Shown here piece by piece: positions 8,800 to 64,000 of a stretch of DNA of 64,000 nucleotides. A program made the position numbers and the translations under genes. This stretch comes from Fluviicola sp. (lineage in GTDB: Bacteria; Bacteroidota; Bacteroidia; Flavobacteriales_D; Crocinitomicaceae): positions 124,001 through 188,000 of the forward strand of contig NVXV01000002.1 of NCBI GenBank assembly GCA_002734085.1, given 5' to 3'. Positions within the stretch are counted from its first letter, which is position 1. Every line of letters starts with the position of its first letter. The notes beneath the pieces were generated by a model. The model was not told the DNA's origin and searched no databases. It saw nothing but the letters and a program-made list of their open reading frames with translations.

Positions 8800-9188
8800 T
8801 GGCTAGTATTTTTACTAAAATAATTAACGGTGATATACCAAGTTACAAAGTAGCAGAGAATAATGAATATCTTGCATTTCTTGATATACAACCTCTTGTA
8901 AAGGGACATGTTTTAGTTGTACCAAAAAAAGAAGTAGACTATATTTTTGATTTGGAAAACGATACATTGTCAGGGTTGATGACTTTCGCCAAGACTGTTG
9001 CTAAGAAAATGGACAAAGTGCTAGAATGTAAAAGAATTGGAGTAACTGTTATTGGTCTTGAAGTTCCGCATGCACACATACACCTTATTCCAATTAACGG
9101 TGTAGCTGACATGGATTTTGGAAAAAATAAACTTTCGTTGGAAAATGACGAAATGGAAAAAATCGCTAAATTAATTAAAGAGGCTTAG
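8799..9188 (+). CDS. HIT family nucleotide-binding protein
   Basis: 129-residue Hint-branch histidine-triad protein: nucleotidyl hydrolase or transferase acting on AMP-linked substrates such as aminoacyl adenylates. The start FTKIINGDIPSYKVAENNEYLAFLDI and the triad HAHIHLI (near residues 90-96) are typical. It overlaps greA by one base. The 3' end overlaps the convergent ruvC stop by four bases, the two stop codons sharing TTAG. The same greA-HIT order occurs in other Bacteroidota as far as I know. Confidence 0.95.
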   Translation: MASIFTKIINGDIPSYKVAENNEYLAFLDIQPLVKGHVLVVPKKEVDYIFDLENDTLSGLMTFAKTVAKKMDKVLECKRIGVTVIGLEVPHAHIHLIPINGVADMDFGKNKLSLENDEMEKIAKLIKEA

Positions 9189-9760: not shown

Positions 9761-9770
9761 TAAATTAAAT

Positions 9771-10718
9771 GTGGTGTTTCAAAACTTAAAGGTAAGAAAG
9801 TCTTTGTTGTGGTCAGTTAAAATTCTGGTCTTTCTTCTCATACTCTATATTTTCATTATTCAGCTCACTAAAATATCCTACGATAACATCACAGATCTTA
9901 CTATTCAAAACTTTTGGTATATCATTTTCGCAATCCTTTTAGTACCAATAAATTTGGGGTTGGAATTTTTGAAATGGTTTTATACTGTCAAATCAATAGA
10001 TCCAAATATTCATACTTCTCGAGTTACGCAATCACTTTTAGCTGGAATCTCAACGGGATTTGTTACCCCTAATCGATTGGGGAATTTTATTGGTAGAATG
10101 CTTTATTTCAAAGGCAGAAAAGGTGCTCTATTAATTCTAGGAACGCTTTATGGTAATTTGGCTCAGTTTATTGCTTCTTTAATTTTTGGTACAATTGGAT
10201 TCCTGCTCATTGGTTCTGTTGTTTTTGATATTGATAAAGAATCATATTTCTCTTTCGTTGCTATGATTATTGGAGGAATTGCTGTTGTCTTATTTGTGCT
10301 TTATCCATTAATTCCAATTGAAAGACTTAATTGGTTCAAACGTTACCTAAATGTTCTTGCGAAGTTTAGAGTTAAAGCAAAGAAAATTGCTTTGTCTTTA
10401 TTAATTTTAAGTCTAGTAAGATACTTGGTGTTTGTCCTTCAGTTTTGTTTGTTACTTATCGCTTTTGGGGCCAGTTATTCTCACGAATTGATTTATGGAA
10501 TTTACTTACATTACTTAATTGTGACTTTAACACCGACACTTATTTTCGGCAAGTTGGTTGTGCGGGAAACTATTGGTTTACTTGTTTTGGGCTCTTTTGT
10601 TTTGAACCCTACAGTGATAATTGTAGCGTCTTTATTTTTATGGCTTATTAATCTCGGTATTCCTGCATTAACTGGCCTTTATTTTCTTTTGAGGGTCAAA
10701 TACGCGAAACATGATTGA
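9771..10718 (+). CDS. Polytopic membrane protein, LPG-synthase transmembrane (UPF0104-like) family
   Basis: About 315 residues with seven or eight membrane helices. The motif STGFVTPNRLGNFIGRMLYF corresponds to the TP(N/G)R-G signature of the lysylphosphatidylglycerol-synthase transmembrane family, the flippase-like part without the synthase domain. The open frame reaches back to 9711 inside ruvC, but that part reads as antisense of ruvC; GTG at 9771 or 9774 is the better start, giving VVFQNLKVRKSLLW before the first helix. The next gene, a glycosyltransferase, overlaps by eight bases, so a joint role in lipid or glycolipid handling is inferred. Substrate unknown. Confidence 0.8.
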   Translation: MVFQNLKVRKSLLWSVKILVFLLILYIFIIQLTKISYDNITDLTIQNFWYIIFAILLVPINLGLEFLKWFYTVKSIDPNIHTSRVTQSLLAGISTGFVTPNRLGNFIGRMLYFKGRKGALLILGTLYGNLAQFIASLIFGTIGFLLIGSVVFDIDKESYFSFVAMIIGGIAVVLFVLYPLIPIERLNWFKRYLNVLAKFRVKAKKIALSLLILSLVRYLVFVLQFCLLLIAFGASYSHELIYGIYLHYLIVTLTPTLIFGKLVVRETIGLLVLGSFVLNPTVIIVASLFLWLINLGIPALTGLYFLLRVKYAKHD

Positions 10719-11793
10719 TTTTTACTTTTATTTTACAGCGACGACAGGGCTCTTTGTTTTGGTGATGATTTTAGTGAAAAACTTCTCAAAGCCAAAAGGA
10801 CTTAATAATTGTTCTGCAGATGAAATAACTGTTATTATTCCATTCAGAAACGAAGCCACTAAACTTCAACCACTCATCAAATCCTTATTAAATCAATCCA
10901 TTTTACCTTCATCTATAATCTTTGTCGATGATCATTCTTCAGATCATTCTTGTGAGATTATTAGTACAAGCCTAAACGAGAAAAAAGAAGTTAGTTTGAT
11001 TCATCTACCAAAAGATCTCAATGGAAAAAAACAGGCAATCCGTTTTGCAATTAGAAAAGTAAATACGAAATATTGCTTAACAATTGATGCAGATACATGG
11101 TTCAAAGAACAATTCTTTCAGAAATTGACAGTTTCAGAAAATATTGATATGCAAATTCGCCCTATTATAATGAAAGGTGATTCTATAATTGGTCATTTTG
11201 CTGGCACCGAGTATACTTTTTTTAATGCACTGAATAAATTGCTCTCTCCAATTTATATTCTTTCTTCAAGTGGGGCGAATCTTTTATTTAAAAAGTCAAC
11301 ATTTGATGAACTGGATAATTTTGAATCTCATCGTCATATTGCTTCGGGAGACGATCATTATTTGCTTAGGGCTTTTCAACATGGAAAAACAAAAATCACA
11401 GTTTCAGATGCTAAAAACGATTTAGTTTTTACTGATTCTACCAATTCTCTCAATGATTATTTTAACCAGCGAATGAGATGGCTCGGTAAGACAAAAGTGA
11501 AAACAACAGTTTCTGAACTATTTATCGGTTTATTAATTGTAATTTATTTAATTGGAGGATTTCTATCCATAACTTATTTATTGTTTATTGGTCGAGTGGA
11601 TTTATTCCTAATTCTATTTTTTGGAAGATGGATTATTGATTCACTTTCCTTTCTCAATTATACTATTCCTTTAAGACAGTCGTCTCATTGGTGGTGGCTA
11701 CCGTTCTTTCAATTGCTTTACCCAATCCTTTTTATTTCAGTTCTGTTGGGGAGTTTATTCTTCAAACCTAAATGGAAGGACAGAAAAACATAA
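10711..11793 (+). CDS. Membrane-anchored family 2 glycosyltransferase
   Basis: 360 residues: one N-terminal membrane helix, a GT-A catalytic domain starting ITVIIPFRNEATK (about residue 35), a DxD-type metal site in LTIDADTW, an acceptor-side GDDHYLL, and the processive-type QRMRWLGK (Q-x-x-R-W); then two or three C-terminal helices. This is the layout of membrane GT2 enzymes that build polysaccharide or glycolipid at the inner leaflet. It overlaps the preceding UPF0104-like gene by eight bases, suggesting one transcript and coupled translation. Donor and acceptor cannot be inferred. Confidence 0.88.
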   Translation: MIDFYFYFTATTGLFVLVMILVKNFSKPKGLNNCSADEITVIIPFRNEATKLQPLIKSLLNQSILPSSIIFVDDHSSDHSCEIISTSLNEKKEVSLIHLPKDLNGKKQAIRFAIRKVNTKYCLTIDADTWFKEQFFQKLTVSENIDMQIRPIIMKGDSIIGHFAGTEYTFFNALNKLLSPIYILSSSGANLLFKKSTFDELDNFESHRHIASGDDHYLLRAFQHGKTKITVSDAKNDLVFTDSTNSLNDYFNQRMRWLGKTKVKTTVSELFIGLLIVIYLIGGFLSITYLLFIGRVDLFLILFFGRWIIDSLSFLNYTIPLRQSSHWWWLPFFQLLYPILFISVLLGSLFFKPKWKDRKT

Positions 11794-11801
11794 TATTTCC
11801 A

Positions 11802-12356
11802 CTATAACCATTCGAATAGTGTTGCGATTCCCAAGAAAATCAATAATATAGCTGAAAATAAATCTGTACTTTTCTTAAATCGTTCTTTTAAGTATTTTCC
11901 TGTGTTCAGTCCGATGAAAGTAAAAATCACGGAAGAAACTGCAATTACTGAGGCGGTTGTTACTGGATGGAAATTCTGTAAACCAATACTAAATCCTACA
12001 ATTAGATTATCTAAACTCAAACCAGCAGCCAAAGAAATAATTCCTGTCCAACTCGTTACTTTTTTTAATAAGTACTCCTCGTCCTCCAAGGAGGAATTAA
12101 AACTTTTATAAACCATAAATAAACCAAACAGTAGTAGAATACTTCCGCCAATATAAGCTACATAGTCTGCAATAAATTCGGAAAATTGCTGACCAATAAA
12201 AACACCAACAAGAGGAATCACAAATTCAAATACTCCGAAAATAGCAATGATTCGCCACCAAAAATATCTAATATTTAATGCACCAAGAGAAAATGCTACA
12301 GCTAGATTGTTACTACCGATTACAACACCAAGAAGAAATAGTTTCCAAACTTCCAT
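11802..12356 (-). CDS. MntP-like six-helix membrane protein (probable manganese efflux)
   Basis: 184 residues, six predicted helices in two homologous halves. Each half has the motif seen in MntP/YebN: NNLAVAFSLGA (residues about 16-26) and SLDNLIVGFSIGLQ (about 114-127), where acidic or polar residues in helices 1 and 4 should line the ion path. In E. coli MntP exports Mn2+; the first half here carries Asn-Asn where MntP has Asp, so specificity may differ. Stands alone between convergent and same-strand neighbours with an 81-base gap upstream. Confidence 0.78.
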   Translation of the reverse strand: MEVWKLFLLGVVIGSNNLAVAFSLGALNIRYFWWRIIAIFGVFEFVIPLVGVFIGQQFSEFIADYVAYIGGSILLLFGLFMVYKSFNSSLEDEEYLLKKVTSWTGIISLAAGLSLDNLIVGFSIGLQNFHPVTTASVIAVSSVIFTFIGLNTGKYLKERFKKSTDLFSAILLIFLGIATLFEWL

Positions 12357-12437
12357 ATTCGATAATCAAAAATATAATTTAATAGCATACTCATCCTCTA
12401 CATTCTTAGCTCCTTCTTTGCAACTTAGCGGTTATGT

Positions 12438-13838
12438 TCACCAAATCAAAAGTACCCCTCCAAACAAAATGACTCCTAGAACAAACAATAAAAAGGTATA
12501 AGGCAAGATTTGATAAGGTTTTAATTTTGTAATACCAAGTAACGGTAAAGCCCAAAATGGCTGCAACATATTGGTCAACTGGTCTCCATAAGACATCGCC
12601 AAAACGGTCTTCGGTAAATCTGCACCCAGCTGAGTAGCAGCTTCAATTAAAATTGGACCTTGGATTGCCCATTGTCCACCTCCACTTGGAACGAAGAAAT
12701 TAACGACTCCTGCACTGATAAATGTATAAATAGGTAAAGAATAATCCGTTGCAATGGCGATGATAGAATCTGAAAACAAGGTGATCAAGCCACTACTTTT
12801 CATGATTCCTAGTATTCCGAAATAGAGTGGAAACTGAATTAGAATTCCTGAGATATCTCCTATAGATAATTGTACTGCATTTATAAAATTATTAATAGAT
12901 CGATGAAAGAAGATGGACATTCCCAAAAGTGAGAGATTAATGAAGTTTAAATTGATGAATCCAAGAGTACTTTCTCCTTGGTAATTCATGGCTTTGATGA
13001 CTACAAGCACTAATATTCCTAAACCGAGAAATGTACCAACGAGTTTACTGTAGTCCAATCGCTCGGCCCCTTTCATTTTTCCAATGGGGTCTTCAGCTGT
13101 TTTTCCAAACTGTTTTGAGAATTTTGGGACAAAACCATCACCAGATTTACGCGCAATGAAATACAGGAATAAAGGGATGAGTACAACACAAAGTACCGCT
13201 ACCAAAATGTTCATTCCTGACCCAATGGTGGAGTCAAAAGGAAGAAATTCAGGATAGCTCCCTGTTCCTCCCATACGTTCCATCATAGCTGGAATGCAGC
13301 CTTCTTCCATCGCTTTTGTGGTGGCACTGCCCGAAAGTCCTCCGTGCCAAACCATCATTGTGGAATAAGCGGCAGCTCCAACGAGTCCATAATTGATTGT
13401 TTTTCCTTGATGTGCGAATTTCTCACCAACTTTTCGGGCTAGTATCGCTCCAAAGATCAACCCTAAGCCCCAATTGAATAATCCCATCACAATCGCTCCA
13501 ATAGCAACAACAAATACACTCGAAGCAGTATTTCGACAATATACAAGCAATGCTTTAATCAGTCTATCTACAGGTCCTGTCAATGCAAGTACATGCCCTA
13601 ATACCAAAACCAGCATCATTTGAAAGGCAAAGTAAAGTCCACCTGCGGAGTCGTCCCAAAGCCCTTCCTCCCAAGACGAAAAGAGATAAATTAAATAGTC
13701 GCCATGCGATGATTCTGGGGGCTTTGTCAAAAATAGAGCTAACAAAACCGTTAAAATCGTCAATAAAATCGCAATTGTAAACGGACTCGGAAGAATGCGT
13801 TTAAAAATTGATATAAGTTGTTTTGATCTTTTTGACAT
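12438..13838 (-). CDS. atoE: Short-chain fatty acid transporter family (AtoE-like)
   Basis: 466 residues with about twelve membrane helices. The segments MGLFNWGLGLIFGAILARKVG, AAYSTMMVWHGGLSGSATT and FVPSGGGQWAIQGPI are hallmarks of the AtoE/TIGR00366 family, proposed to take up short-chain fatty acids such as acetoacetate or butyrate. There is no ato operon around it, so the link to acetoacetate catabolism is by family only. The ORF runs cleanly from MSKRSKQLISIFKR with a basic cytoplasmic N-terminus. Confidence 0.85.
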   Translation of the reverse strand: MSKRSKQLISIFKRILPSPFTIAILLTILTVLLALFLTKPPESSHGDYLIYLFSSWEEGLWDDSAGGLYFAFQMMLVLVLGHVLALTGPVDRLIKALLVYCRNTASSVFVVAIGAIVMGLFNWGLGLIFGAILARKVGEKFAHQGKTINYGLVGAAAYSTMMVWHGGLSGSATTKAMEEGCIPAMMERMGGTGSYPEFLPFDSTIGSGMNILVAVLCVVLIPLFLYFIARKSGDGFVPKFSKQFGKTAEDPIGKMKGAERLDYSKLVGTFLGLGILVLVVIKAMNYQGESTLGFINLNFINLSLLGMSIFFHRSINNFINAVQLSIGDISGILIQFPLYFGILGIMKSSGLITLFSDSIIAIATDYSLPIYTFISAGVVNFFVPSGGGQWAIQGPILIEAATQLGADLPKTVLAMSYGDQLTNMLQPFWALPLLGITKLKPYQILPYTFLLFVLGVILFGGVLLIW

Positions 13839-13874
13839 AATACAATAAGTAAGCTCTAAATTAGAAATAACTAA

Positions 13875-14507
13875 TTACTTTAAAAACCCTCTTTTTCTCA
13901 AATCCTTTTGTAAAAACGCTATATTTTCAGGTATATCTCTTTCCAACAACCAGTCTATATCAAACCCATGATATTTACAAGTCTGAACAATACCGTTATT
14001 CTTTTTGAAATGCTTTCCAAGTTTTGTGAGATCTTCTTTAAAATCAATGTATAAATCGGGATCAAGTTTATTTATTGCGACGCGCAAATTAAACGTTTTA
14101 TTTACAATGTAAACAGCTAACTTCCTTCCCTTATCAGTTCCAGAAAATGTATCAATTTCTACTGAAAAGTATTCGAAAGCCTTGTTCATAAGGTATAGAT
14201 TCAGTAATGCATCCCCATATTTATCTTTGGTTGTAAAGAGATAACTGGCGATTTCACTACTCAACTTTCTTAAAGCTCTAGATAAATTTACAGGCTTAAA
14301 ACCAGATTGTTTAACATTATCAAAAGCAAGAGTAACATTTTCATAAAAGTCATTTTGAAGATCCTCTTTTGTAAAATCGCCTATTAATTCATAGTGTAAT
14401 CGTTTTGCCAGTTTTTTATCTCGCCTCACTAACATGGCGATTAACTTATCTTTTTCTCGATCGGGTAATTCGCTCAAAGCTCTTTTGAATTCTTTATCGA
14501 TTTTCAT
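13875..14507 (-). CDS. Conserved cytoplasmic protein of unknown function
   Basis: 210 residues, no signal peptide or membrane helix. Highly charged and mostly helical; begins MKIDKEFKRALSELPDREKD and contains a run of Lys/Arg at LVRRDKKLAKRLHYELIG. It resembles Bacteroidota proteins annotated as DUF6155, but I am not certain of that family. It lies 36 bases upstream (in transcription sense) of the AtoE-like gene, close enough for one transcript. No catalytic pattern recognised. Confidence 0.7.
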   Translation of the reverse strand: MKIDKEFKRALSELPDREKDKLIAMLVRRDKKLAKRLHYELIGDFTKEDLQNDFYENVTLAFDNVKQSGFKPVNLSRALRKLSSEIASYLFTTKDKYGDALLNLYLMNKAFEYFSVEIDTFSGTDKGRKLAVYIVNKTFNLRVAINKLDPDLYIDFKEDLTKLGKHFKKNNGIVQTCKYHGFDIDWLLERDIPENIAFLQKDLRKRGFLK

Positions 14508-14539
14508 AAGGTAAAATTAGCATAAAGTTGGTTATAGCA

Positions 14540-14665
14540 CAGAGTTCCACAAAGGAATTCACAGAGGTTCACAGAGAAAATCTCAGTGTTCTCCCTGCTA
14601 CAAATCACGTCCTATCAATTCGTCACTAAGACAAGCGAAGCGCAGTCGATGGCACTAGTCACTAA
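14540..14665. repeat. Dispersed intergenic repeat remnants (cacagag and gcgaagcgcagtcga types)
   Basis: The gap before lhgO holds a string of CACAGAG/TTCACAGAG words (14540-14578) and then CAAGCGAAGCGCAGTCGATG (14631-14650). Both resemble short sequences scattered between genes in many Bacteroidota genomes. Further copies of the first type occur at about 15963 and 52806. Confidence 0.5.
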
Positions 14666-14713
14666 AACTCTCCTTTTAATGCTTTTTTCCCCTCATTCCA
14701 GCAACTCTTTTAT

Positions 14714-14721
14714 TACTTTTG
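14714..14721 (+). promoter_or_regulatory. -7 promoter element of lhgO
   Basis: TACTTTTG matches TAnnTTTG and ends 16 bases before the GTG start, giving a very short leader. I see no clear TTG at -33. Confidence 0.4.
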
Positions 14722-14737
14722 CCTAAAATTTATAAAA

Positions 14738-15958
14738 GTGGACGATCAAACATACGACGTAGCGATTATTGGAGGTGGAATTGTTGGAGCAGCAACTTTT
14801 TACAAACTGCAAAAACGAAACCCTAATCTAAATATCATCCTCATTGAAAAGGAAGATAAGTTTGCAGATCATCAAACAGGACATAATTCAGGTGTGATTC
14901 ATTCAGGTCTATATTATACCCCTGGTTCTTTAAAGGCCGAAAACTGTGTGAAGGGTAGAAGAGAATTGGTTGAATTTGCAAAAGAACATAAAGTGCCACA
15001 CGATGTATGTGGTAAAGTGGTTGTCGCTACAAGAAAAGAAGAACTTCCATTTATGGATAAAATTTTCAATAACGGTTTAGAAAACGGAATTGAAGGAATT
15101 GAGAAGATAGACGCGAAACAAATTAAAGAGCATGAACCTCACGTAGAGGGCATTGCTGGAATTTGGGTGCCTTGTACAGGAATCATTGATTACCGTAAAG
15201 CAACGGAGAAAATGATTGAAATTGCAAAAGGATACAATGCAAATTCAAAGACAGTTCTCGGTGAAGAAGTGATTGGTGTAGAAAAAGATGGAGAGTTAAA
15301 TACTGTTGTTGGTGCTACTCAAAAATTCAAAGCAAAACACCTTATTTTCTGTGCTGGCTTGCAAGCCGATCGTCTCGCAAGAAAAGATGGAGTTGATTTA
15401 AAAGAACAAGTTGTTGGATTCCGTGGCGACTATTACGAACTAACAGAACAGGCAAAATATAAAGTTAAAAACCTTATTTATCCAGTTCCAAATCCAGACT
15501 TCCCATTCTTAGGTGTACATTTTACACGTATGACAGACGGAGAAATTGAATGTGGGCCTAACGCTGTTTTTACTTTTAAACGAGAAGGATACGGTAAAAC
15601 AGATTTCAACTGGAAAGATACTTGGGACGCTTTGACTTATAAAGGGACATGGAAGTTATTCTTTAGTAATATTAAATTTGGAATCAACGAATATCGTAGA
15701 GCATTCTCAAAGAAACTATTCTTAAAAACACTTCAAGGAATGATTCCATCGTTAACAATGGATGATATCAAGCCTGGTAGAGCAGGGGTTAGAGCATTGT
15801 TACTCGGAACTGATGGCGATACAAGAGACGATTTCAGAATTGAATACCACGGTCATTCAATCCACGTATTAAATGCACCATCTCCCGCAGCAACAGCATC
15901 GTTGGCAATTGGAGATTATATTGCGGATGAAGCGGAGAAACATTTTTCTCTGAAGTAA
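14738..15958 (+). CDS. lhgO: L-2-hydroxyglutarate oxidase
   Basis: 406 residues; FAD enzyme oxidising L-2-hydroxyglutarate to 2-oxoglutarate, usually membrane-associated and feeding electrons to quinone. The dinucleotide-binding motif VAIIGGGIVGAATFYKL is at residues 8-24, followed by the family segments HQTGHNSGVIHSGLYYTPGS and GRAGVRALLLG near the end. The start is GTG at 14738, supported by the -7 element 16 bases upstream and by the position of the FAD motif. Monocistronic, as the neighbour upstream is divergent. Confidence 0.93.
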   Translation: MDDQTYDVAIIGGGIVGAATFYKLQKRNPNLNIILIEKEDKFADHQTGHNSGVIHSGLYYTPGSLKAENCVKGRRELVEFAKEHKVPHDVCGKVVVATRKEELPFMDKIFNNGLENGIEGIEKIDAKQIKEHEPHVEGIAGIWVPCTGIIDYRKATEKMIEIAKGYNANSKTVLGEEVIGVEKDGELNTVVGATQKFKAKHLIFCAGLQADRLARKDGVDLKEQVVGFRGDYYELTEQAKYKVKNLIYPVPNPDFPFLGVHFTRMTDGEIECGPNAVFTFKREGYGKTDFNWKDTWDALTYKGTWKLFFSNIKFGINEYRRAFSKKLFLKTLQGMIPSLTMDDIKPGRAGVRALLLGTDGDTRDDFRIEYHGHSIHVLNAPSPAATASLAIGDYIADEAEKHFSLK

Positions 15959-16035
15959 ACAACTCAGTGAACTTTGCGCCTTCTTTGCGTTCCTCTGCGG
16001 TTAAAACTCACAATGAATGATTTGTAACTAGGGGT
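15959..16035. repeat. Intergenic repeat remnant between convergent lhgO and dnaE
   Basis: Contains CTCAGTGAACTTTGCG and CTTTGCGTTCCTCTGCGGTT, the same style of repeat seen in inverse orientation near 14540. No terminator hairpin is evident between the two convergent genes. Confidence 0.45.
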
Positions 16036-19000
16036 TTACTCCAAGGCATACGCCACATCAAACCCTTTTAAAGAATCCAGTAAAGTATCATTAATATCCA
16101 CCTTCACAAATCGCGAAGGCAAATCAACTTCCAAATTATTCACTGTATCAAAGACATTAAACCGAACCTGATATTTTCCTTGGTTTTCTTTAAAAACCTG
16201 ATCGATATCTTCAATAAATCGCTGATTAACCTGGCTCAATGCCACTTTGATTTTAAGCGCTTGTGTTTTCTGCTCTCTTAAGCTCGATAGAAAATCTATT
16301 TTCTGAACTTTGAATTCGAATTCATCGTTTTTCCAACGTTTAGGTTGTACTTTACCTACCAGATAAATGAATGCTCCTTCAGACATGTAGTCTTTAAACT
16401 TTCCATAATCTTCACGGAATAAAAACAGTTTCGTAGAGTCGCTATAATCTTCAATCACAATTGTTCCAAACGGATCTCCTTTCCTTGTATGACGATGCTC
16501 GACCTCTGTGATTATCGCAGCGATTGTGAATTCACGGTTTTGATTTTTGTCTAACTGAATTATGTCTTGGATAGTACCCGAACAAAAAGATTCAATGTCA
16601 ATCTTATAATCATCAAGTGGGTGACCAGAAATATAAATCCCAACCACTTCTTTTTCTTTATTCAATTCTTGAAGCGAGGACCATTCAGGCACTTGAGGAA
16701 TCGTTGGAGCAGGAGTAGCTACACCAGAAGATTCTCCAAATAAACTTGCTTGACTTGAATTAATACTTTCCTGATGACTCGCTCCAAACTTAATAGCACT
16801 TGCTAGGAACGTACGATTGTTGTCTTCCGCAAAATATTGAGCACGGTGTATATTTGTAAATGAATCAAATCCACCACCTAGCGCTAAACCTTCAAATGCT
16901 TTTTTATTACATTTTCTTAAATCAACACGTTTTGTGATATCGAAAATATCGCGGAAAGGACCGTTTTCATTCCTTTCATTAACTAGAGCTTCAACAGGTG
17001 CATGACCAACACCTTTTATCGCTCCAAGCCCAAAACGGATAGCGCCTTCCTTGTTTACGGTAAATTTAAAGTTGGATTCATTGACATCAGGTCCTAATAC
17101 TGGAACTCCCATTCGCTTACATTCTTCCATAAAGAAAGAAACTTGTTTGATGTCGTTCATGTTATTACTTAATACGGAAGCCATGTATTCCGCAGGATAG
17201 TTTGCCTTTAAATATGCTGTCTGATATGCAATCCAAGCGTAACAGGTTGAGTGAGACTTGTTAAACGCATAAGATGCAAATGCCTCCCAATCACGCCAGA
17301 TTTTCTCTAATTTATCTTTAGAATGGCCCCTTTCATTTCCTTGATTTAAAAACTTAGGTTTTAGCTTCTCAAGTAAATCAAACTTCTTTTTACCCATTGC
17401 TTTACGTAAGGTATCTGCTTCACCTTTAGTAAATCCAGCGAGTTTTTGAGAAAGTAACATCACCTGCTCTTGGTAAACTGTAATTCCGTAGGTTTCCTCT
17501 AAATATTCTTTGGTTGCTTCTAAGTCGTAAATAATTTCTTCATCACCGTGTTTACGCTTAATGAAGGAAGGAATATATTCTAAAGGCCCTGGACGGTAAA
17601 GTGCGTTCATGGCAATGAGATCGGCAAAGACAGTAGGCTTTAATTCGCGCATGTACTTCTGCATTCCTGGCGATTCGTACTGGAAAACCCCAACCGTTTC
17701 TCCACGCTGGAATAATTCGTAAGTAGGAACATCATCCAATGGAAACTCATCCGGAATTAAGTCTATATCATGTCTGTCTTTCACAAAAGCAACGGCGTCT
17801 TTGATTAAAGTCAACGTTTTTAATCCAAGAAAATCCATTTTTAACAGACCAGCCTCTTCAACTACCGAGTTGTCAAACTGTGTACAATACATGTCTGAAT
17901 CTTTTGCTAAGGCTACGGGAACGTATTCTGTAATATCACTCGGTGTAATGATTACACCGCAAGCGTGAATTCCAGTATTACGAACATTTCCTTCGAGTCG
18001 TTGAGCTTTCTGTATTACCTGGGCTGGCAAATCACTTCCTGCACCAATCTGCTTAAGTTGATTCGCGCGAACAATATTTTCTTGATTGTTTTTAAGGACA
18101 TCTGCCAAATCAGCATCACCCAAACCAAATATTTTCTTTAAAGAGATATCTGGAATCAATTTCGCTAAACGATCTGCTTCAAACAACGGTAAGTTTAATA
18201 CTCTCGCTGTATCTCGCACAGAAGATTTTGCGGCCATCGTACCGTAAGTTATAATTTGCGCTACTTGATTTGCACCGTATTTCTCAATTACCCAATCGAT
18301 AATTCTGCTTCGACCTTCATCGTCAAAATCAATATCAATATCGGGCATTGATACACGATCTGGATTTAGGAAACGCTCAAAAAGTAGATCGTACTCGATG
18401 GGATCAATGTTTGTAATTCCATTACAATAAGCTACTGCAGAGCCAGCGGCTGAACCACGACCCGGACCAACAATGACACCCATTTCCCGCGCAGCATTAC
18501 AGAAATCTTGAACGATCAAGAAATAACCTGGATAACCAGTATTTGCAATAATCTCTAATTCAAAATCGAGTCGTTCACGAATTTCATCTGTAATCTCAGG
18601 ATAACGCTTTTTAGCTCCCTCGTAAGTAAGGTGACGGAGATAATTATTCTCCCCGTTTTTTCCTCCATTCTTTTCATCCTCAATGTCTCTAAATTTTTCT
18701 GGAATATCGAAAGCGGGGAGGAGAATATCGCTGGCAAGTGTATAGTATTCACATTTATTTGCGATTTCTATAGTGTTTTCAATCGCTTCAGGAATGTCAG
18801 CAAACAACTCCTTCATTTCATTTGGCGATTTGAAATAGTAATTTTCATTCGCTAAACCAAAACGAAATCCTCGGCCTTTTCCCTTTGGTGTTTCCACCAT
18901 TTCACCATCTTTGATACAAAGCAAAATATCGTGAACAATGGCATCTTCCTGATCGATGTAAAAAGTGTTGTTTGTTGCTACTAATTTAACTTCATGTTTC

Positions 19001-56451: not shown

Positions 56452-56607
56452 CGAAATTTAAGTGAATTTTCCGCGTATTTTTGGGAATGATATTTCAGAG
56501 TACATCAAAAGCAGACAAACGTAATCGTTACAGTTAGTAAGCTTAAAAGTTTTAAGTAGCGTTTTTTGAAGAAGAAATTTAAAACTGTTTATGGTAAAGT
56601 ACTTATC

Positions 56608-56684
56608 AAAAAGGGGCAAGAAAAATTGATAATAGACCTTATTAATGAACTGTTAGTTTTTTCTCTTTTAGATCTCCCCTTTTG
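56608..56684 (-). terminator. Possible long-loop terminator of the ATP-grasp operon
   Basis: On the minus strand AAAAGGGG (56683-56676) can pair with CCCCTTTTT (56616-56608); an inner AGAAAAA/TTTTTCT pairing shortens the loop. It follows the ATP-grasp stop by about 20 bases. Confidence 0.35.
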
Positions 56685-56704: not shown

Positions 56705-57580
56705 TTAATGAGTTTCTTTTAAAGAAGGATGTTTGATGAAAAAATCAATCATATCATCGTATATATTAATCTCACTTTTTAATCCTTCTCTCCAAAAATT
56801 TGCTGGTAAATTTACTTCTAATACTTTAGGTTCTTTTGTCTTTCTGTCAATCACAATATCAACTCCAGCCATATATAAGTTGGCTCTCTTGACAGCAAGA
56901 ATAAGAATATCTTTGATTGATTGAGGTATATTCTTTTTTATAACAACTTTACCATTAACTGCATTTGATCTGAATTCGTTGGGATTATCTAAGAGTCTGC
57001 AATATCCAGGGAAAACTATTTCATCAATAACAGTATATCGATCAACACTTTCGGAGTAAATAAACTCCTTTAATAGAAAGTCTATGTCTAATTTGAATAA
57101 ATAATCTGCAGTACTGAATAAACCCTGAAACGAATCTAATTGAATAGTGCCTATTCCTCCGCTTCCTCCATAAGTCTTCAGAATAATTGGAAATCCCCCT
57201 AGATAATCAACGTATGATTTTAATAGCTCTTTATTATTGTTACAATAGTGAATCGTTTTAGGTGTTGGAATATTATATTTATCAAATATAATGTTAATCT
57301 GGTTAGGGTCTCTAAAAACGGATGTACCTGGGAACTTTCTATACAAAGTACGAACATTTTTATTAATCATGGAACATTCAAGTAGTCTACTTCCTCTAGC
57401 ACAATTGTATAATCCATCTTCTGAATCGGGAACTGGCAGGCTTGAAAAATTTGCATTTTGCTGATTAATAGCGTGAAAGTTTACACCACGTTTTACACAG
57501 GAATTATTTAATGCTGAGATCCTTTCATGTAAATCATGACTATCTGACTTTGAATTATATAAACAATAAAAATTATTCAT
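56705..57580 (-). CDS. ATP-grasp ligase (RimK-like)
   Basis: 291 residues. ATP-grasp core: VFRDPNQINIIFDKYNIPTPKTI (about 88-110), Lys135 in FPIILKTYGGSGGIGTI with the flexible Gly loop, hinge Glu172, Arg204, and metal ligands Asp241, Glu255 and Asn257 in KVLEVNLPANF. The first 85 residues are a pre-grasp region of their own. Such enzymes make an amide or peptide bond through an acyl phosphate. It overlaps the PQ-loop gene by eight bases and ends a tight cassette with two GNATs. No precursor peptide ORF was seen beside it, so a free amino acid or metabolite substrate seems more likely than a ribosomal peptide. Confidence 0.85.
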   Translation of the reverse strand: MNNFYCLYNSKSDSHDLHERISALNNSCVKRGVNFHAINQQNANFSSLPVPDSEDGLYNCARGSRLLECSMINKNVRTLYRKFPGTSVFRDPNQINIIFDKYNIPTPKTIHYCNNNKELLKSYVDYLGGFPIILKTYGGSGGIGTIQLDSFQGLFSTADYLFKLDIDFLLKEFIYSESVDRYTVIDEIVFPGYCRLLDNPNEFRSNAVNGKVVIKKNIPQSIKDILILAVKRANLYMAGVDIVIDRKTKEPKVLEVNLPANFWREGLKSEINIYDDMIDFFIKHPSLKETH

Positions 57581-57857
57581 GATGATAAATAAACTTAAAA
57601 TAAAAAATGATACTTAGTAAAACTGTAGATACCAATACACCGATTCCTTGACTAATAATAATGGCAATATCATCTTCTAATATACCATGAATAATCCAAA
57701 GAAGGTATGTTACCCAAATAATTGAATAATGTAGAAAAGAGAGATTATGAACTGTTTTTGTCCTAAGAATTAAACTAATTTGATGTGGGACACCAATTAC
57801 TTTAGTGCTTAGACTCGTAATAATTACTAACATGCTTATGATTCCTTCAAATGTCAT
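57573..57857 (-). CDS. PQ-loop (SemiSWEET-like) three-helix membrane protein
   Basis: 94 residues, three membrane helices and one PQ-loop-like motif, GVPHQISLILRTKTVHNLSF, in which His separates Pro and Gln. This is the half-transporter size that dimerises. Relatives move sugars or other small molecules. Overlaps the GNAT gene upstream by 11 bases and the ATP-grasp gene downstream by eight, so its transport substrate may be the cassette's product or precursor. Confidence 0.75.
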   Translation of the reverse strand: MTFEGIISMLVIITSLSTKVIGVPHQISLILRTKTVHNLSFLHYSIIWVTYLLWIIHGILEDDIAIIISQGIGVLVSTVLLSIIFYFKFIYHHE

Positions 57858-58389
57858 TGTTTATATTATAAATCAATATATATGTTTTTTCTTTATTTGA
57901 AAATGGATAATAAGTATCAGCAGAAAAGTCGACCATATTGACTTCTAAACATCCTTTTGATTCTAATTCCTTTTTTCTCCATTCTTTAGCAGTCATCAGT
58001 GCAAATGTTTTATATTCAGATGAATTAAGAAATTCAAACCTTTTTTGATCTATTTTACTTCTTAATCCCAGTCCCTTATAATCTGGTGACACAACCATTT
58101 TAGAGAAAAACCAAAATGGTTTTATATTTGGAATACCAGAGTCACTAAAAATATTGGAGTAGGGAAGCTCTGATAAAGAGTGGACTAAAGTGAGTCTAGC
58201 GGCAGCAATAATAGTCTTTTGTTTTTCAATAACAAAATGAACACTTCTTCCATCCAGTTTATCTGAAAAACCATTTGGATATGAATCTATATTTATAAAC
58301 TCTGAATATTTAGACTTTGCATAAGCAAGAACTCTTAGTTTCTTAATTTCATCTAATCTTTCTACAGACTTCAAAATCTCTACCTTCAT
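57847..58389 (-). CDS. GNAT-fold acyltransferase (first type)
   Basis: 180 residues. The order of elements, LRVLAYAKSKY near the start, Asp/Gly region (SYPNGFSDKLDGRSVHFVIEK), AAARLTLVHS, then FFSKMVVSPDYKGLGLRSKI for acyl-CoA binding, recalls GNATs related to LuxI/FeeM N-acyl transferases more than plain acetyltransferases, but this is by eye only. It overlaps the PQ-loop gene and lies 22 bases after the second GNAT gene. Confidence 0.78.
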   Translation of the reverse strand: MKVEILKSVERLDEIKKLRVLAYAKSKYSEFINIDSYPNGFSDKLDGRSVHFVIEKQKTIIAAARLTLVHSLSELPYSNIFSDSGIPNIKPFWFFSKMVVSPDYKGLGLRSKIDQKRFEFLNSSEYKTFALMTAKEWRKKELESKGCLEVNMVDFSADTYYPFSNKEKTYILIYNINNDI

Positions 58390-58411
58390 TTAAAAATAAT
58401 TTTATTGAAGC

Positions 58412-58924
58412 CTATTTGTTTTTTGGAACATTATAAACATACAATACAAGTTCATTATTTAATGATTCTTTGTTTGAAATAGGGATTACTCCAATTTTTT
58501 TAAATCCTAGCTTTTTACCTACACTTATCATGGTTGTGTTACTTGTTTGAGTTTGACCGAAAAATAGAGTGATATTAGAATCGGGCAAATGTTTAAGCAT
58601 TCTTTTTAGTAGATTATATCCGGTTCCACCTGATTGATATTTTTTCTTAACAAAGGTGGATGAAACTGCATGTTCTCTCCAGAAAAGAGGATTGTTTCGT
58701 ATAGGTAAAGCACTTTGATAGCCTATAACTTCATTATTCAAAACAGCGACAAATATTTCAAAGCTTCCATCTACATATTGAAGTAAATGATTAAACGTAT
58801 CACGATATTGTTCTATCTCTGCTTCATCTGAGATTTGGTTTTGGTTGTTTTCATACCATATCTCAAAAAGATGTTCTTTGTCTGTTTTCGGGTTGTATTT
58901 TCTTATTGTTACTTCATCTTTCAT
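58412..58924 (-). CDS. GNAT N-acetyltransferase (second type)
   Basis: 170 residues, standard GNAT plan: VTIRKYNPKTDKEHLFEIWYEN start, FEIFVAVLNNEVIGYQSALPI core strands, SSTFVKKKYQSGGTGYNLLKRML acyl-CoA loop, and SVGKKLGFKKIGVIP at the end. Sequence clearly different from the adjacent GNAT. The ATG is only four bases after the stop of the secreted WG-like gene, so it is probably on the same transcript. Substrate unknown. Confidence 0.85.
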   Translation of the reverse strand: MKDEVTIRKYNPKTDKEHLFEIWYENNQNQISDEAEIEQYRDTFNHLLQYVDGSFEIFVAVLNNEVIGYQSALPIRNNPLFWREHAVSSTFVKKKYQSGGTGYNLLKRMLKHLPDSNITLFFGQTQTSNTTMISVGKKLGFKKIGVIPISNKESLNNELVLYVYNVPKNK

Positions 58925-58928
58925 AATT

Positions 58929-60638
58929 TCACCTGTTCCACCACAGTTCTTTTACTTCTTCAATGGTTTTGGCTTTGCCTACCACGTGTTTTTCAGGGTT
59001 GTTCATATAATAGAGTTCCCAGTATCCATCTTTCTTTACGGCACAACCTCTCGTATAATCTAAATGAATGAACCTAAAGTCATCATATTCACAAGGGAGT
59101 ATTTTTCGAATATCTTCTCCATTGTAGAAATAATAACCGACTTTGTCATCGCACCACGTTTCTACAACTACTTCGTTTCCGTATTTGTGTAATTTTATAG
59201 CATTAGTGGCGACAGGGAGTTCCGTTTCTGAACGAAAACCACTTGGTATTTGTATAGACCAACGCTCTGTTGTAGCATGACGAACCAGTAAGATAGTACG
59301 TTTTTCGTTTTCTGAATAGGTGTAATATCCAAAGAATGTGGCAATGTCTACCTCCTTGTTTTCTTTCAGAAAATCGCTAACAACTTTCATTTGTTCGTGT
59401 TGACGAAGGCGTGGGTATTCATATTCATAATGGTTATAATGATTGAGCAATGAGTCGGGAAGTGTTTTGGCACTACTAAAATGAAAGCCAGATAATAGGT
59501 GCATTTGATGGGTGTGGTTATCATAATGGGCGAGGGCACATTTATGCTCCCTTTGTATAGCCAGACCATCGTACACTTCAGAGATTTCTTTTTTCCATAC
59601 TATATCGTCTTTTTCCTCATCATAATATTCAAATTCGTTAGTATCTAAACGAGTACGAATTACTAGGCTGTCAAACCACAAGGATCTGTCTAAAGTATAC
59701 TGCCCCTGATCTTCATTAAGTAATAGGACATATTTTTTGTCTTTTTCTTTTGCAACCGAAAAACCGAGTTTGTTTGGGAAGTCAATCGACACATTGTTCC
59801 AGCCAATAAAGACCCCACTTTTGTCACCCAGTCCCCAGTGTCCCTTTTTGTGTTTTATTTTAAAAGGGTAGTCTGAATACACGTCGGGATTAAAAATGAT
59901 TTTTGTGTAATTATCTTCGGAAGCAAGGCGGTCTATACCCTGGAAAATATCGGTTCTTTCATCTAAAAGACCTTTTGCAACCAAGTCGTTTGCTTCACAA
60001 ATTAAACGAGAAATACTTGCTAAGGGTAAATCGTCATAATTACCATAACCAAACGGAGTTAATTGATATAAGTCACCTGAAATGCTGGATACATATTCAT
60101 CTCTTGCGATATAAACCATTCCCCACTTTCCTTTACTTTTCAATGCTATACAAAGATGGTTTTCTATCGTTTCAATGTGTTTTTGTTGGGTTGTGTTGAA
60201 ATAGTATACTGTATCTGTTACTTGATACAGATTCATGTCATCAAATGCAAAATCACTGAGGTATTTTCCTCCAAAAGAATACAGGTATTTCTTACCCTTA
60301 CGAATTGCTACCGTAAAACCAACTTCTTCTAATTCAGTTTGTGGAAAGGTTAAGGAGTACTTTCTTTTGCTGCATACTTCCCAATCCCAACTATCGATCA
60401 GTGCCCAATCTCCGGAATTGTACTGAACTCGAAAGGAATATATAGAACTTGTATCCGGATTGAACTCAATGGTTTTTAGCTCATTTAGTTCTAAATACTT
60501 GTCGATTATTTTCTTGGGTGTGTCTTTTGTGATTTTGTATTCCTTCTCGGCTTTATCATAATAAAAAGGATCTTGTGCTTTTGAAAGTGTGCTGCAAAGC
60601 AGGGTGAGGATAAATAATAGTTGCGTTGTATTTTTCAT
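58929..60638 (-). CDS. Secreted WG-like repeat protein
   Basis: 569 residues from ATG 60638, which gives a clean signal peptide MKNTTQLLFILTLLCSTLSKAQ; the frame also opens at 60671, overlapping the RCC1 gene by four bases, but that adds 11 residues in front of the signal. The body has degenerate WG-type units (SGDWALIDSW, KGKWGMVYI, KGHWGLGDKSG, DGYWELYYM), each followed by strand-rich stretches. No C-terminal sorting domain. Probably periplasmic or outer-membrane associated. Function unknown. Confidence 0.78.
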   Translation of the reverse strand: MKNTTQLLFILTLLCSTLSKAQDPFYYDKAEKEYKITKDTPKKIIDKYLELNELKTIEFNPDTSSIYSFRVQYNSGDWALIDSWDWEVCSKRKYSLTFPQTELEEVGFTVAIRKGKKYLYSFGGKYLSDFAFDDMNLYQVTDTVYYFNTTQQKHIETIENHLCIALKSKGKWGMVYIARDEYVSSISGDLYQLTPFGYGNYDDLPLASISRLICEANDLVAKGLLDERTDIFQGIDRLASEDNYTKIIFNPDVYSDYPFKIKHKKGHWGLGDKSGVFIGWNNVSIDFPNKLGFSVAKEKDKKYVLLLNEDQGQYTLDRSLWFDSLVIRTRLDTNEFEYYDEEKDDIVWKKEISEVYDGLAIQREHKCALAHYDNHTHQMHLLSGFHFSSAKTLPDSLLNHYNHYEYEYPRLRQHEQMKVVSDFLKENKEVDIATFFGYYTYSENEKRTILLVRHATTERWSIQIPSGFRSETELPVATNAIKLHKYGNEVVVETWCDDKVGYYFYNGEDIRKILPCEYDDFRFIHLDYTRGCAVKKDGYWELYYMNNPEKHVVGKAKTIEEVKELWWNR

Positions 60639-60667
60639 TTTTTGAAGTTTATTCCACCCAAATTCAA

Positions 60668-62821
60668 TCAATTCTTAATGACTTTAATGATGCTTTTCTT
60701 GCCTTGATTATTCGATAGTTCAAGAAAATAAATACCTCTTTCACTTTCAATAGGCAACGTAATATACTGTTGTCCTTTCACAGTTGAAGTATAAACAATT
60801 TGCCCTAGTGCATTGCTTAATTTTAACGTCAATTCATTATATACTTCATTTAAATCAATGTTTATTTCACTTTTTGTCGGGTTTGGATATACAGATGTGT
60901 TATTGCTTAAACTATTTTCTGAAATACCTACATTGGCAACTGTAACACAGGAAGAGGTGTCTGTACAACCATTTTCTGTAACAATTACTGCATAGTTACC
61001 ATTGACAGTTGCTGTAAAACTTTGTGCTGTTTCACCCGATATGGTAGCGTTTCCGTTATCACAATCTATCCATTGGTAAGTAGCTCCCGAAACACTAGCT
61101 GTTAAGGTGGGGGAGTTGTTGGTTACAATAACATTTACTGAATTGATTGTTAAATCCAAAGTTATTACGGAGTCACAGCCTGCAGTATTATTTAGTGTAT
61201 GTGTTGCTGTATTGTTACTCGTAGTGTAGGTGTTTCCGTCAATCCATGTAAAGGAATCACAAGCTGTTTGGGTATCTATTCCTGTGTTGGAGTTGGTAAT
61301 TGTGAGATCAAGGGTTACGATAGAGTCACAAGCAGCAGCGTTTGTCAATGTATGTGTAGCAGTATTGTTATTTGAAGTATAGGTGTTTCCATCGATCCAT
61401 GTAAAGGAATCGCATGTTGTTTGGAAATCTGTTCCAGTTGTGGGAGAGTTGACTATAACTTCTACTGTATTGGTGGTGTTAATAGGGCTGTCAATCAATA
61501 CAGGTATGTCACTATTAGCTGTTGTTCCATTTCCTAATTGTCCATAAGAGTTGAATCCCCAAGACCAAAGTGAGCTATCACTATTTATGGATGAACTATG
61601 CACACTTCCTAGATGTATTTGACTCCAGTTGGTAGCCGTACCAATTTGTACGGGGGTGTGTTTATCGGCTGTTGTACCATCGCCTAATTGACCATTGAAA
61701 TTCCCTCCCCACGCCCAAAGGGTGCTATCACTTTTAATAGCTAAGGAATGATAAGTTCCTGCTGATATTTGAATCCAATTATTAGCTGTCTCAATTTGAG
61801 CAGGTGAAAATTGTATATTTGATGTTACTGATCCATCACCTAATTGACCATAGTAATTCCCCCCCCAAGTCCACAGCGAACTATCATTTTTAATCGCCAG
61901 ACTATGGTCATGGCCTGCAACTATTTGACTCCAATTGGTAGATGTTCCTATTTGAATAGGATTATGCCTAGTGGTGGCAGTACCATCACCTAACTGACCA
62001 TAGCCATTATAACCCCACGCCCATAGTGTGCCATCGTTTTTAATGCCCAAACTGTAACTGTTTCCCGCATCTATTTGATTCCAATTGGTATCCGTGCCGA
62101 TTTGTACGGGGGTGTGTTTATCGGTTGTTGTACCATCACCTAATTGACCATCATAATTATATCCCCATGCCCAGAGCGTGCCATCGTTTTTAATGGCTAA
62201 ACAATGATGATTATTTACAGATATTTGGTTCCAATTTGTATTAGTACCGATTTGTATGGGGGTGTGTTTATCGGTTGTCGTACCATCACCTAATTGACCA
62301 GAGTTATTCCCTCCCCATGCCCAGAGTGTGCCATCGTTTTTAATGCCCAGACTGTGCGCACCTCCTGCAGCTATTTGACTCCAATTGGTAGCTGTGCCGA
62401 TTTGTATAGGGGAGTACCTATCGGTTGTTGTGCCGTCGCCTAATTGACCAGAGTTATTCCATCCCCATGCCCAGAGCGTGCTGTCACTTTTGATTCCCAA
62501 GCTGTGTGATTGTCCTGCAGCTATTTTTACAAAAGCTGTGTTCACTTCGTAGGTTATATTATGATTTCCCGCCCCTGCAGAGGAAGGGTCAAAGGTGGCT
62601 GTTCCGTTACCATTATCCATTACTCCTGGACCACTAAAGATTCCGGAGGCGTTGTTGTCTGCTGTTATTGTAATGGCAGAGGAATTCAAGCAAGTTTCTT
62701 GTCCATCTAAAATACCACTAAAGTCCGCTTCCTGAGTATATGAAAGGCTTGTCCAAATTACCCCTAAAAATAGTAAAACAAATTTTGATTTATTTTCCAT
62801 CATAATAGTTTGATTTTTCAT
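60668..62821 (-). CDS. Secreted seven-repeat RCC1 propeller protein with T9SS tail
   Basis: 717 residues. N-terminal signal region (KFVLLFLGVIWTSLSYTQ), an Ig-like strand region to about 95, then seven RCC1 repeats of about 50 residues, each with a HSLxIKxDxTLWAWGxN and GQLGDGT pair, as expected for one closed propeller. Two copies of a roughly 48-residue unit (CDSFTWIDGNTYT) follow, then an Ig-like domain and a type A T9SS domain (VYPNPTKSEINIDL to KSIIKVIKN). It should be displayed on the cell surface or released. Second of seven apparently linked genes. Confidence 0.9.
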   Translation of the reverse strand: MKNQTIMMENKSKFVLLFLGVIWTSLSYTQEADFSGILDGQETCLNSSAITITADNNASGIFSGPGVMDNGNGTATFDPSSAGAGNHNITYEVNTAFVKIAAGQSHSLGIKSDSTLWAWGWNNSGQLGDGTTTDRYSPIQIGTATNWSQIAAGGAHSLGIKNDGTLWAWGGNNSGQLGDGTTTDKHTPIQIGTNTNWNQISVNNHHCLAIKNDGTLWAWGYNYDGQLGDGTTTDKHTPVQIGTDTNWNQIDAGNSYSLGIKNDGTLWAWGYNGYGQLGDGTATTRHNPIQIGTSTNWSQIVAGHDHSLAIKNDSSLWTWGGNYYGQLGDGSVTSNIQFSPAQIETANNWIQISAGTYHSLAIKSDSTLWAWGGNFNGQLGDGTTADKHTPVQIGTATNWSQIHLGSVHSSSINSDSSLWSWGFNSYGQLGNGTTANSDIPVLIDSPINTTNTVEVIVNSPTTGTDFQTTCDSFTWIDGNTYTSNNNTATHTLTNAAACDSIVTLDLTITNSNTGIDTQTACDSFTWIDGNTYTTSNNTATHTLNNTAGCDSVITLDLTINSVNVIVTNNSPTLTASVSGATYQWIDCDNGNATISGETAQSFTATVNGNYAVIVTENGCTDTSSCVTVANVGISENSLSNNTSVYPNPTKSEINIDLNEVYNELTLKLSNALGQIVYTSTVKGQQYITLPIESERGIYFLELSNNQGKKSIIKVIKN
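61480..62530 (-). repeat. Tandem RCC1 repeats, about 150-base period
   Basis: Seven coding repeats. Three stretches of about 50 bases starting at 61645, 62101 and 62251 are almost identical; the last two are exactly 150 bases apart with two differences. Such similarity permits copy-number change by recombination. Confidence 0.8.
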
Positions 62822-62832
62822 TTTAATGAGGT

Positions 62833-64000
62833 TTATTTAATTCGTTTTCCAGTTTTGTCGATGTAAAAAGTTTTCCCATATATATCGTCCTTATTTTCAT
62901 ATAGCTTTACCATTGCCTTGCCATTTGAAAAATCATACGCGTAATCAAACTTTAAAGGTATAGCTACTTTTCCTGTTTTATCGATATAACCGTATTTCTC
63001 TCCTAGTGTTACAACTGCAAAACCTTCATTAAATTCATTAACATGGTCATATTTTAATGGTGTTATTTCTTTTCCATTTTCATCAAGAAACTGCCATTTG
63101 TTGTTATGTTTTACGTTTACAAGACCATCTGAAAAATAACCTACTTCATCATACTTTACAGGAATTACTTCATTTCCGATATTGTCAATAAAACCCCACT
63201 TATTATTGAGTTTTACATATACAAGTCTATTCCCTGTCTTAAAACCATTTTCTTGAATATAGTCGTATTTTATGGGTATGATTTCTTTTCCTGTGGAATC
63301 TATAAATCCTATTTTACCATTTAGGTTTACTTTTGCCACTCCTCTGTAGAAGTAACTCATACTATTATATTTCAGTGGTATCTTAACCTTTCCTGAAGTG
63401 TTGATTACGCCATAATGAGGAACATATTGAAACTCTTCAACGCCATCATAAACCCCCAAACTTATACTGTCTCCTCTTACTGCTACAATAGCTGTCCCTT
63501 TTAAAAAGGAGTCTGCTTTTATATATCTAACTGGAATTACAATTTTTCCTTTTTTATTGATATAACCATGTTTATATCCCCTTTCTCCATCTAAAACAGA
63601 AACCAATGCTAGGCCATCCGGAAAATATTCCTGCATGCCATTCTCATTGATAGTGCCTTCAATATTATCATAAATTAGAGGTATAATTTCTTTACCATTT
63701 GCGTCTATGATTCCCTTTTTTGACACAGAACTGTATAATTCTTTATCATAATATGGCACACTTGCCACTTTTGTAAAACCGTCGGTAAAGGGAATGTAAA
63801 TTGAACTGTATTTAACTGGAGTTATTCTACCGGATTTGTCCACCAAACCATATTTTTTGAAATTATAATATTTTGGCACATTAGGTAGATTATCAGGGTT
63901 ATTTAATAAACTATCCTTAACAGAGACCATCCATATGTTCTCATCAAAATGTTTTACACCATCATAGCTGATAGCTGTTATTTCTTTTCCTTTTCTATTG
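62833..64000 (-). CDS. WG-repeat protein, N-terminus outside window
   Basis: At least 388 residues; an ATG exists at 63930 but the frame continues upstream with another WG-type unit (NRKGKEITAISYDGVKHFDE) to the window edge, so the gene is partial. About eight to ten WG units are visible, for example GFIDNIGNEVIPVKYDEVGY and GYIDKTGKVAIPLKFDYAYD. WG domains are strand-rich repeats with unknown ligands. It ends 11 bases before the RCC1 gene and probably belongs to the same transcript. Confidence 0.88.
   Translation of the reverse strand, partial: NRKGKEITAISYDGVKHFDENIWMVSVKDSLLNNPDNLPNVPKYYNFKKYGLVDKSGRITPVKYSSIYIPFTDGFTKVASVPYYDKELYSSVSKKGIIDANGKEIIPLIYDNIEGTINENGMQEYFPDGLALVSVLDGERGYKHGYINKKGKIVIPVRYIKADSFLKGTAIVAVRGDSISLGVYDGVEEFQYVPHYGVINTSGKVKIPLKYNSMSYFYRGVAKVNLNGKIGFIDSTGKEIIPIKYDYIQENGFKTGNRLVYVKLNNKWGFIDNIGNEVIPVKYDEVGYFSDGLVNVKHNNKWQFLDENGKEITPLKYDHVNEFNEGFAVVTLGEKYGYIDKTGKVAIPLKFDYAYDFSNGKAMVKLYENKDDIYGKTFYIDKTGKRIK

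Follow-up and report, generated by a model that had tools for sequence, protein, structure and literature searches.

ATP-grasp ligases of the R2K.3 type have been described in operons containing multiple GNATs, for which ligation followed by acyl capping was proposed (PMC4431377, 2015); this work builds on Iyer et al. 2009 (PMC3268129) and also raised protein targets for such operons. An experimental parallel is the synthesis of N-acetylglutaminylglutamine amide (NAGGN), in which a single protein, Ngg, carries out both the N-acetylation of glutamine and its ligation to a second one, and works with AsnO (PMC8070244). More generally, ATP-grasp enzymes are able to join amino acids, carnosine synthase being an example, and none was known for N-acyl aromatic amino acids, according to a review (PMC8762209). 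Concerning transport, a survey of the gene context of SemiSWEETs (PMC5972207) reported that several of them lie in carbohydrate operons and argued from their diverse neighbours that their substrates are diverse. A search of PMC full text, which leaves subscription journals mostly uncovered, returned no paper pairing “ATP-grasp” with “SemiSWEET” or “PQ-loop”.

The locus analyzed here lies in a stretch of 64,000 nucleotides, which as a whole is called the window in what follows. It consists of four genes on the minus strand, read from 58924 to 56705, and the ORF coordinates confirm the tight packing described in the original prediction: in gene order (5' to 3'), a 22-base gap is followed by an 11-base overlap and then by an 8-base overlap. 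The four genes, and the gene that precedes them, are the following:

58412..58924, minus strand, 170 aa: GNAT 1, an ordinary GCN5-related N-acetyltransferase (PF00583, above cut-off)
57847..58389, minus strand, 180 aa: GNAT 2, provisionally a divergent GNAT-like acyltransferase (sub-threshold matches)
57573..57857, minus strand, 94 aa: SemiSWEET-type (MtN3_slv, PQ-loop) transporter (PF03083, above cut-off)
56705..57580, minus strand, 291 aa: RimK-like ATP-grasp carboxylate-amine ligase (PF08443, above cut-off)
58929..60671, minus strand: upstream gene without a confident family, GC 0.369, possibly co-transcribed, outside the putative acquired unit

Curated Pfam cut-offs were passed by three of the four cassette proteins and NCBIfam curated cut-offs by none, so that no precise function can be named for any of them. 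The family assignments hold for three genes, and for GNAT 2 a GNAT-like fold is plausible; read from the families, a set equipped to transfer acyl groups, ligate amides and transport small molecules is a fair description. Neither the four proteins nor the upstream one matched a model of a defence system, and no Rfam match was found within the 64-kb window.

The reading that we favour, and that we hold tentatively, is that the four genes represent one horizontally acquired unit making a small N-acylated amino acid or dipeptide by a non-ribosomal route. The ATP-grasp enzyme, judging from its family and from the catalytic residues that it keeps, would activate a carboxylate with ATP and join it to an amine; one or both GNATs (GNAT 2 only provisionally) might acylate the amine end, most simply with an acetyl group, before or after ligation; and the SemiSWEET-like protein might carry a precursor or the finished product through the inner membrane. 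Since the genomes sampled yielded no further example of the set, the product and the joint function are a guess, which keeps the reading tentative. A bolder version, in which the cassette is a mobile and self-contained pathway whose RimK-derived ligase with a rebuilt acceptor side, two acyltransferases and non-sugar SemiSWEET yield and export acylated dipeptides of a new class, possibly a signal or an inhibitor, is in our opinion a long shot.

The ligase matches PF08443 (RimK) with 58.6 bits, the cut-off being 21, whereas it falls short of the NCBIfam cut-off of rimK_fam (63.7 of 143.4 bits, in spite of an E value of 1.7e-17) and of PRK10446, the RimK S6:glutamate ligase model (46.3 of 331 bits). 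Its Pfam matches up to an E value of 1 comprise RimK and one iron-hydrogenase chance match, and the R2K family is absent from them. Residues K135, G142, G144, N206, D241, E255 and N257 are kept, each being identical in all of the 50 comparators (mostly RimK proteins) with which the ligase was compared; on the basis of work on RimK, we take K135, D241, E255 and N257 to be residues of the ATP/Mg site. The protein can thus be assigned to the RimK-like ATP-grasp domain, both by its score and by these four residues. The positions that differ are of another kind: the ligase has V at position 208, where 50/50 comparators have H, K at 211, where 49/50 have G, and A260-N261 after the EVN motif, where P and G are found in 49/50 and 50/50, respectively. 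The motif FRSNLHRGG of the RimK resident in the same genome reads FRSNAVNGK in the cassette protein, the HRGG and SPG positions being changed. Two further differences depend on the alignment and are given no weight: L at position 196, facing R in 50/50 comparators, is directly preceded by an Arg, and S/D at 178/180, facing D/R in 50/50, become D-D and R-R pairs in the PDB alignment. We read the cassette ligase, from its sequence, as a predicted active enzyme with a different acceptor, the ATP chemistry being kept and the acceptor side changed.

The separate ATP-grasp copy of the genome is found on the same contig at a distance of about 76 kb and matches the cassette ligase with 29% identity. 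When it is compared with the other 49 comparators its identity has a median of 63.6% (range 32.4–92.4), whereas that to the cassette ligase is 25.9%, and on this basis we regard the second copy as an ordinary RimK and the cassette ligase as a different protein. The cassette ligase also has the longest terminal branch of the comparator tree (1.77, the next being 0.89).

GNAT 1 is a canonical member of its family, with 33.5 bits against PF00583 (cut-off 20.7), an E value of 1.3e-12 against the acetyltransferase phrog_1249, and an acyl-CoA loop, Q97-S-G-G-T-G102, which we take to be the usual Q/R-x-x-G-x-G/A motif. It scores 17 of 569 bits against the Ngg model TIGR03103, short of the cut-off. 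Generic matches at 22–30% identity were found in 13 of the 58 other relatives' genomes; it also matched six Priestia plasmids, and nothing in phages or viral contigs.

The case of GNAT 2 is different. All its scores are sub-threshold, namely 13.9 of 20.7 bits against PF00583 (E 0.069), 13.5 of 22.4 against PF13444, Acetyltransf_5 (E 0.12), 11.8 of 27 against PF21926, FeeM (E 0.21), and 18.4 of 112 against the NCBIfam exosortase-associated acyltransferase (E 0.0011). It is 30–32% identical to the Runella-type GNAT over residues 10–117 or 10–121. The canonical acyl-CoA motif of GNATs is R/Q-x-x-G-x-G/A; in the alignment the Runella relatives have R-G-R-G-F-A or R-G-Q-G-F-A, and GNAT 2 has K105-G-L-G-L-R110 at the same place, so that its loop is non-canonical. 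A structural model built from a five-row alignment reached a mean pLDDT of 51.8, with residues 1–46, 79–87 and 152–180 below 50, and the single-sequence model was poorer (40.7). The former, low-confidence model has a GNAT-like core, and its best hits were GNATs, both with Foldseek (E 3.6e-4) and in VIA (Z 6.8, rmsd 6.8, 92 residues aligned), which makes a GNAT-like fold plausible as far as such a model can indicate. The resemblance of GNAT 2 to LuxI/FeeM, which the original prediction had pointed to, was not established: the scores are sub-threshold, the model matches generic GNATs, and LuxI/FeeM are absent among the structural and sequence matches listed, a result in which so poor a model excludes nothing.

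The transporter matches PF03083 (MtN3_slv) with 28.4 bits, above the cut-off of 23.7, and can be placed in this family; against the NCBIfam model SemiSWEET_2 it reaches 36.2 of 80 bits (E 5e-9), and among solved structures it matches the SemiSWEET 5uhq (E 2.3e-4), the best row being 4qnc (E 8e-5). The PQ motif and the pocket Trp/Asn are presumably the functional positions of SemiSWEET sugar transporters. In the cassette protein the signature reads P24-H-Q26, with a His between P and Q; Q70 occupies a position that is Asn in 30/30 top-scoring comparators and Thr14 one that is Ala in 30/30, and W54 and G58 are kept as in 30/30. The intact PQ motif with the Trp/Asn pair of a SemiSWEET sugar transporter is therefore not present, the Trp being retained, and the change in the pocket is a hint that something other than a sugar may be transported.

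The four genes were probably acquired as one unit. This is suggested by their base composition, by the lack of GNAT 2 and the transporter in each of the nine congeners (0/9 for both), and by the fact that the single ATP-grasp match found in every congener has 30–31% identity, that is, the level of the genome's own separate RimK (29%). GNAT 1 has weak generic matches in five of the nine (24–29% identity). The GC contents of the cassette genes (0.274, 0.291, 0.306 and 0.306) are the four lowest among 43 ORFs of the window (the 94-aa transporter and 42 ORFs of 150 aa or more). The downstream neighbour has 0.391, and those upstream have 0.369 and 0.398. For the four lowest of 43 to be contiguous, the probability is about 40/123,410, a post hoc figure to be read considering that short genes vary more. 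The pyruvate-dehydrogenase-type gene beside the cassette is present in 9/9 congeners, and in those genomes the stretches around it contain no other ORF from the window comparison (at least 150 aa, the transporter left out), so that the whole neighbourhood is variable and an empty site cannot be defined. No direct repeat of at least 13 bases resembling an insertion mark was found at the cassette ends, a length at which shorter target duplications would escape.

The scan for expression signals returned 21 sites of sigma-70 type, where shuffled sequences gave 15.4 (sd 4.4), and no terminator. A Bacteroidota promoter consensus matched three times in the window against 5.6 expected, and never in the cassette. 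Hence, no promoter or terminator pattern sets the cassette apart as a separate unit. The upstream ORF (58929..60671) stops 4 bases before GNAT 1, and for this reason the cassette may be read from the transcript of that gene; so short a gap to an unrelated gene shows that tight spacing alone has little meaning here. The cassette stands at the 3' end of a long run of minus-strand genes (58929–64000, together with 8669–18947 of locus L066), which includes an RCC1-repeat protein with a type IX secretion tail domain (Pfam) and, by eye, WG-repeat-like proteins and a TPR/SpoIIE-like regulator.

The existence of the same four families in conserved order in other genomes, the gene-neighbourhood check attached to the original prediction, received no support, in that no second example was found in the genomes sampled. 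The search covered samples of the phylum, the class and the order, 58 relatives, GTDB contigs (by peptide pattern), viral contigs, plasmids and phages; the sets overlap and the queries differ by set, for a total of 1994 genomes, repeats included, out of 97,973, and the single-sequence pattern scans recover close relatives only. As no second genome in the sample carries the set, no conserved linkage was seen. This counts against a conserved pathway and is still compatible with a source outside the sampled genomes.

The distribution of the single genes points in the same direction. A relative of GNAT 2 was found in one (G190, a class-level relative) of 394 other genomes of the phylum sample, in 0/398 of the order sample, and in no GTDB contig by the single-sequence pattern scan. 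The search with the first alignment (A1) found six loci, five titled Runella and one belonging to an alphaproteobacterial MAG; the profile from the second (A2) found 10 of 246 others in the phylum sample, namely the same place in G190 plus nine weak matches (E 4.0e-6 to 5.4e-4), and relatives in none of the 405 patterned viral stretches. The only plasmid match of GNAT 2 was in Runella rosea, where it is flanked by a TonB-dependent receptor on one side and an annotated MFS transporter on the other. The G190 GNAT is nearly identical in the alignment to that of Runella, and from this the genome with the cassette is taken to belong to the Bacteroidota. In G190 the genes related to GNAT 2, to the transporter and to the ATP-grasp ligase are on three different contigs. 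In the contig titled Alphaproteobacteria MAG (L067), a GNAT nearly identical to that of the Runella sp. locus lies beside a TonB receptor; the alphaproteobacterial label is probably a binning error.

ATP-grasp matches were obtained in 43 of the 58 other relatives and in 21 of 344 others of the phylum sample (E limit 1e-10), and all those listed begin at query residue 79 or later. The best, in a genome of the same family (G417), has 35% identity over residues 101–283 (E 3.4e-21); its 3.5-kb stretch has no match to a GNAT or to the transporter, and an ORF in it resembles a resolvase by eye. When the first 110 residues of the ligase were searched against 172 other genomes, two weak matches appeared, both with in-frame stops; these loci (L139 and L140, E 0.004 and 0.006) may be broken relatives or chance. 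The ligase had no match in viral contigs and matched 28 plasmid and three phage records, none spanning 80% of the query, and the five of these 31 neighbourhoods that were inspected did not resemble the cassette. On the Aureibacter tunicatorum plasmid pAT1 (L134, 4179–8507), a 458-aa ATP-grasp protein annotated as RimK is followed by three small DUF1843 genes, with radical SAM and methyltransferase genes in the same stretch, a group that looks like a peptide-modification cluster. In the Yersinia phage vB_Yru_GN1 (L136, 4629–6050), a “structural protein” ORF has 32.6% identity to the cassette ligase over 67% of the query and is probably a mislabelled ATP-grasp enzyme.

The transporter was found in none of the 58 other relatives and in no plasmid. 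In the 11 other genomes with both ATP-grasp (E 1e-10) and transporter matches, the two are on different contigs or approximately 500 kb or more apart. An ATP-grasp gene occurs in the short flanks of 0/30 transporter loci and of one of 19 GNAT-2-like loci, which is the window's own; the transporter query found nothing beyond the window's own locus among the ATP-grasp loci, and the GNAT 1 profile, searched against the sequences flanking the ATP-grasp and transporter loci, revealed no GNAT except at L033, the Runella GNAT locus itself.

The original prediction had named two observations that would speak against it, that is, the occurrence of the four families together only in this genome, or the membership of the GNAT and ATP-grasp genes in well-known housekeeping families with unrelated roles. 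The former is what we observed within the sample; the latter does not apply to the ligase, because a separate RimK, 25.9% identical to it, exists elsewhere in the genome. The absence of the set from every other genome sampled would also be expected if the cassette were an accident, that is, four separate foreign genes gathered at one site, or a decaying unit, whose products do not act together, and the lack, in GNAT 2 and the transporter, of residues fixed in the relatives compared fits such a decay; nevertheless, all four frames are open and free of stops, and the two reading-frame overlaps and the uniformly low GC also speak against this explanation, which we regard as somewhat unlikely. The same low GC and absence from congeners would fit an acquired unit for resistance or self-protection, in which the GNATs and the ligase inactivate a toxic small molecule, the transporter expels it and nothing is made. 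Indeed, the solved relatives of GNAT 1 include a phosphinothricin acetyltransferase (E 3.3e-5, the best) and a streptothricin acetyltransferase (E 0.0037), but its score is far under the cut-off of every resistance model listed (at best 28.1 of 210 bits), and to our knowledge an ATP-grasp ligase is not typical of resistance cassettes; we consider this explanation unlikely.

RimK adds amino acids to the ribosomal protein S6. Since RimK is the closest named family of the ligase, and GNAT 1 has similarity to N-alpha and S18-alanine acetyltransferases as well, one might imagine that the ATP-grasp enzyme extends a protein with amino acids, at an end or on a side chain, and that a GNAT caps or counteracts this modification, the transporter being unrelated. 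The changed FRSNLHRGG motif and the changed SPG after EVN argue against this, and a small-molecule transporter inside the unit would be left unexplained, so that protein modification seems quite improbable. Finally, an ATP-grasp gene with a GNAT and a transporter is the shape of some clusters for graspetides, ribosomal peptides cyclised by ATP-grasp enzymes; here, among the ORFs of at least 50 aa beside the cassette, no candidate precursor gene was found, the one minus-strand ORF of this size between the ligase and the next gene (56458..56619) having three Asp/Glu in 53 residues, and a graspetide cluster appears extremely improbable.

If the joint function put forward in the favoured reading is real, a SemiSWEET-type transporter would be tied to amino-acid ligation within a 2.2-kb unit, which is small enough to be cloned in one step and tested; if it is not, unrelated acquired genes would have been packed into something that looks like an operon.

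Compared with the known systems, the cassette ligase shares with the RimK S6:glutamate ligase the ATP-grasp core with the K, D, E and N of the ATP/Mg site, whereas its low identity to the resident RimK, its long branch and its changed acceptor motifs set it apart. The LuxI/FeeM N-acyl transferases are weakly similar to part of GNAT 2, which, however, reaches no curated cut-off. The transporter resembles the SemiSWEET sugar transporters in its PF03083 match and in W54 and G58, and differs from them in PHQ, in Gln for Asn and in Thr14 for Ala. The AsnO/Ngg system (PMC8070244) combines, as is proposed for the cassette, acetyl transfer with a peptide bond on free amino acids, but in the cassette the genes are separate, and no asparagine-synthase-like gene is present among the neighbours scanned. 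With the R2K.3 operons (PMC4431377) the cassette would have in common an ATP-grasp peptide ligase in one putative operon with more than one GNAT, and a patchy spread suggestive of transfer; gene order and spacing fit an ATP-grasp gene near more than one GNAT on one strand, with GNAT 2 counted provisionally, whereas the ligase is RimK-like and a SemiSWEET-like gene sits between. The original prediction did not know the combination as a described pathway; its acylated amino acid or dipeptide had, in kind, already been predicted in PMC4431377. Ligation and acyl capping were thus predicted before, and the new element with respect to these precedents is the SemiSWEET-like gene.
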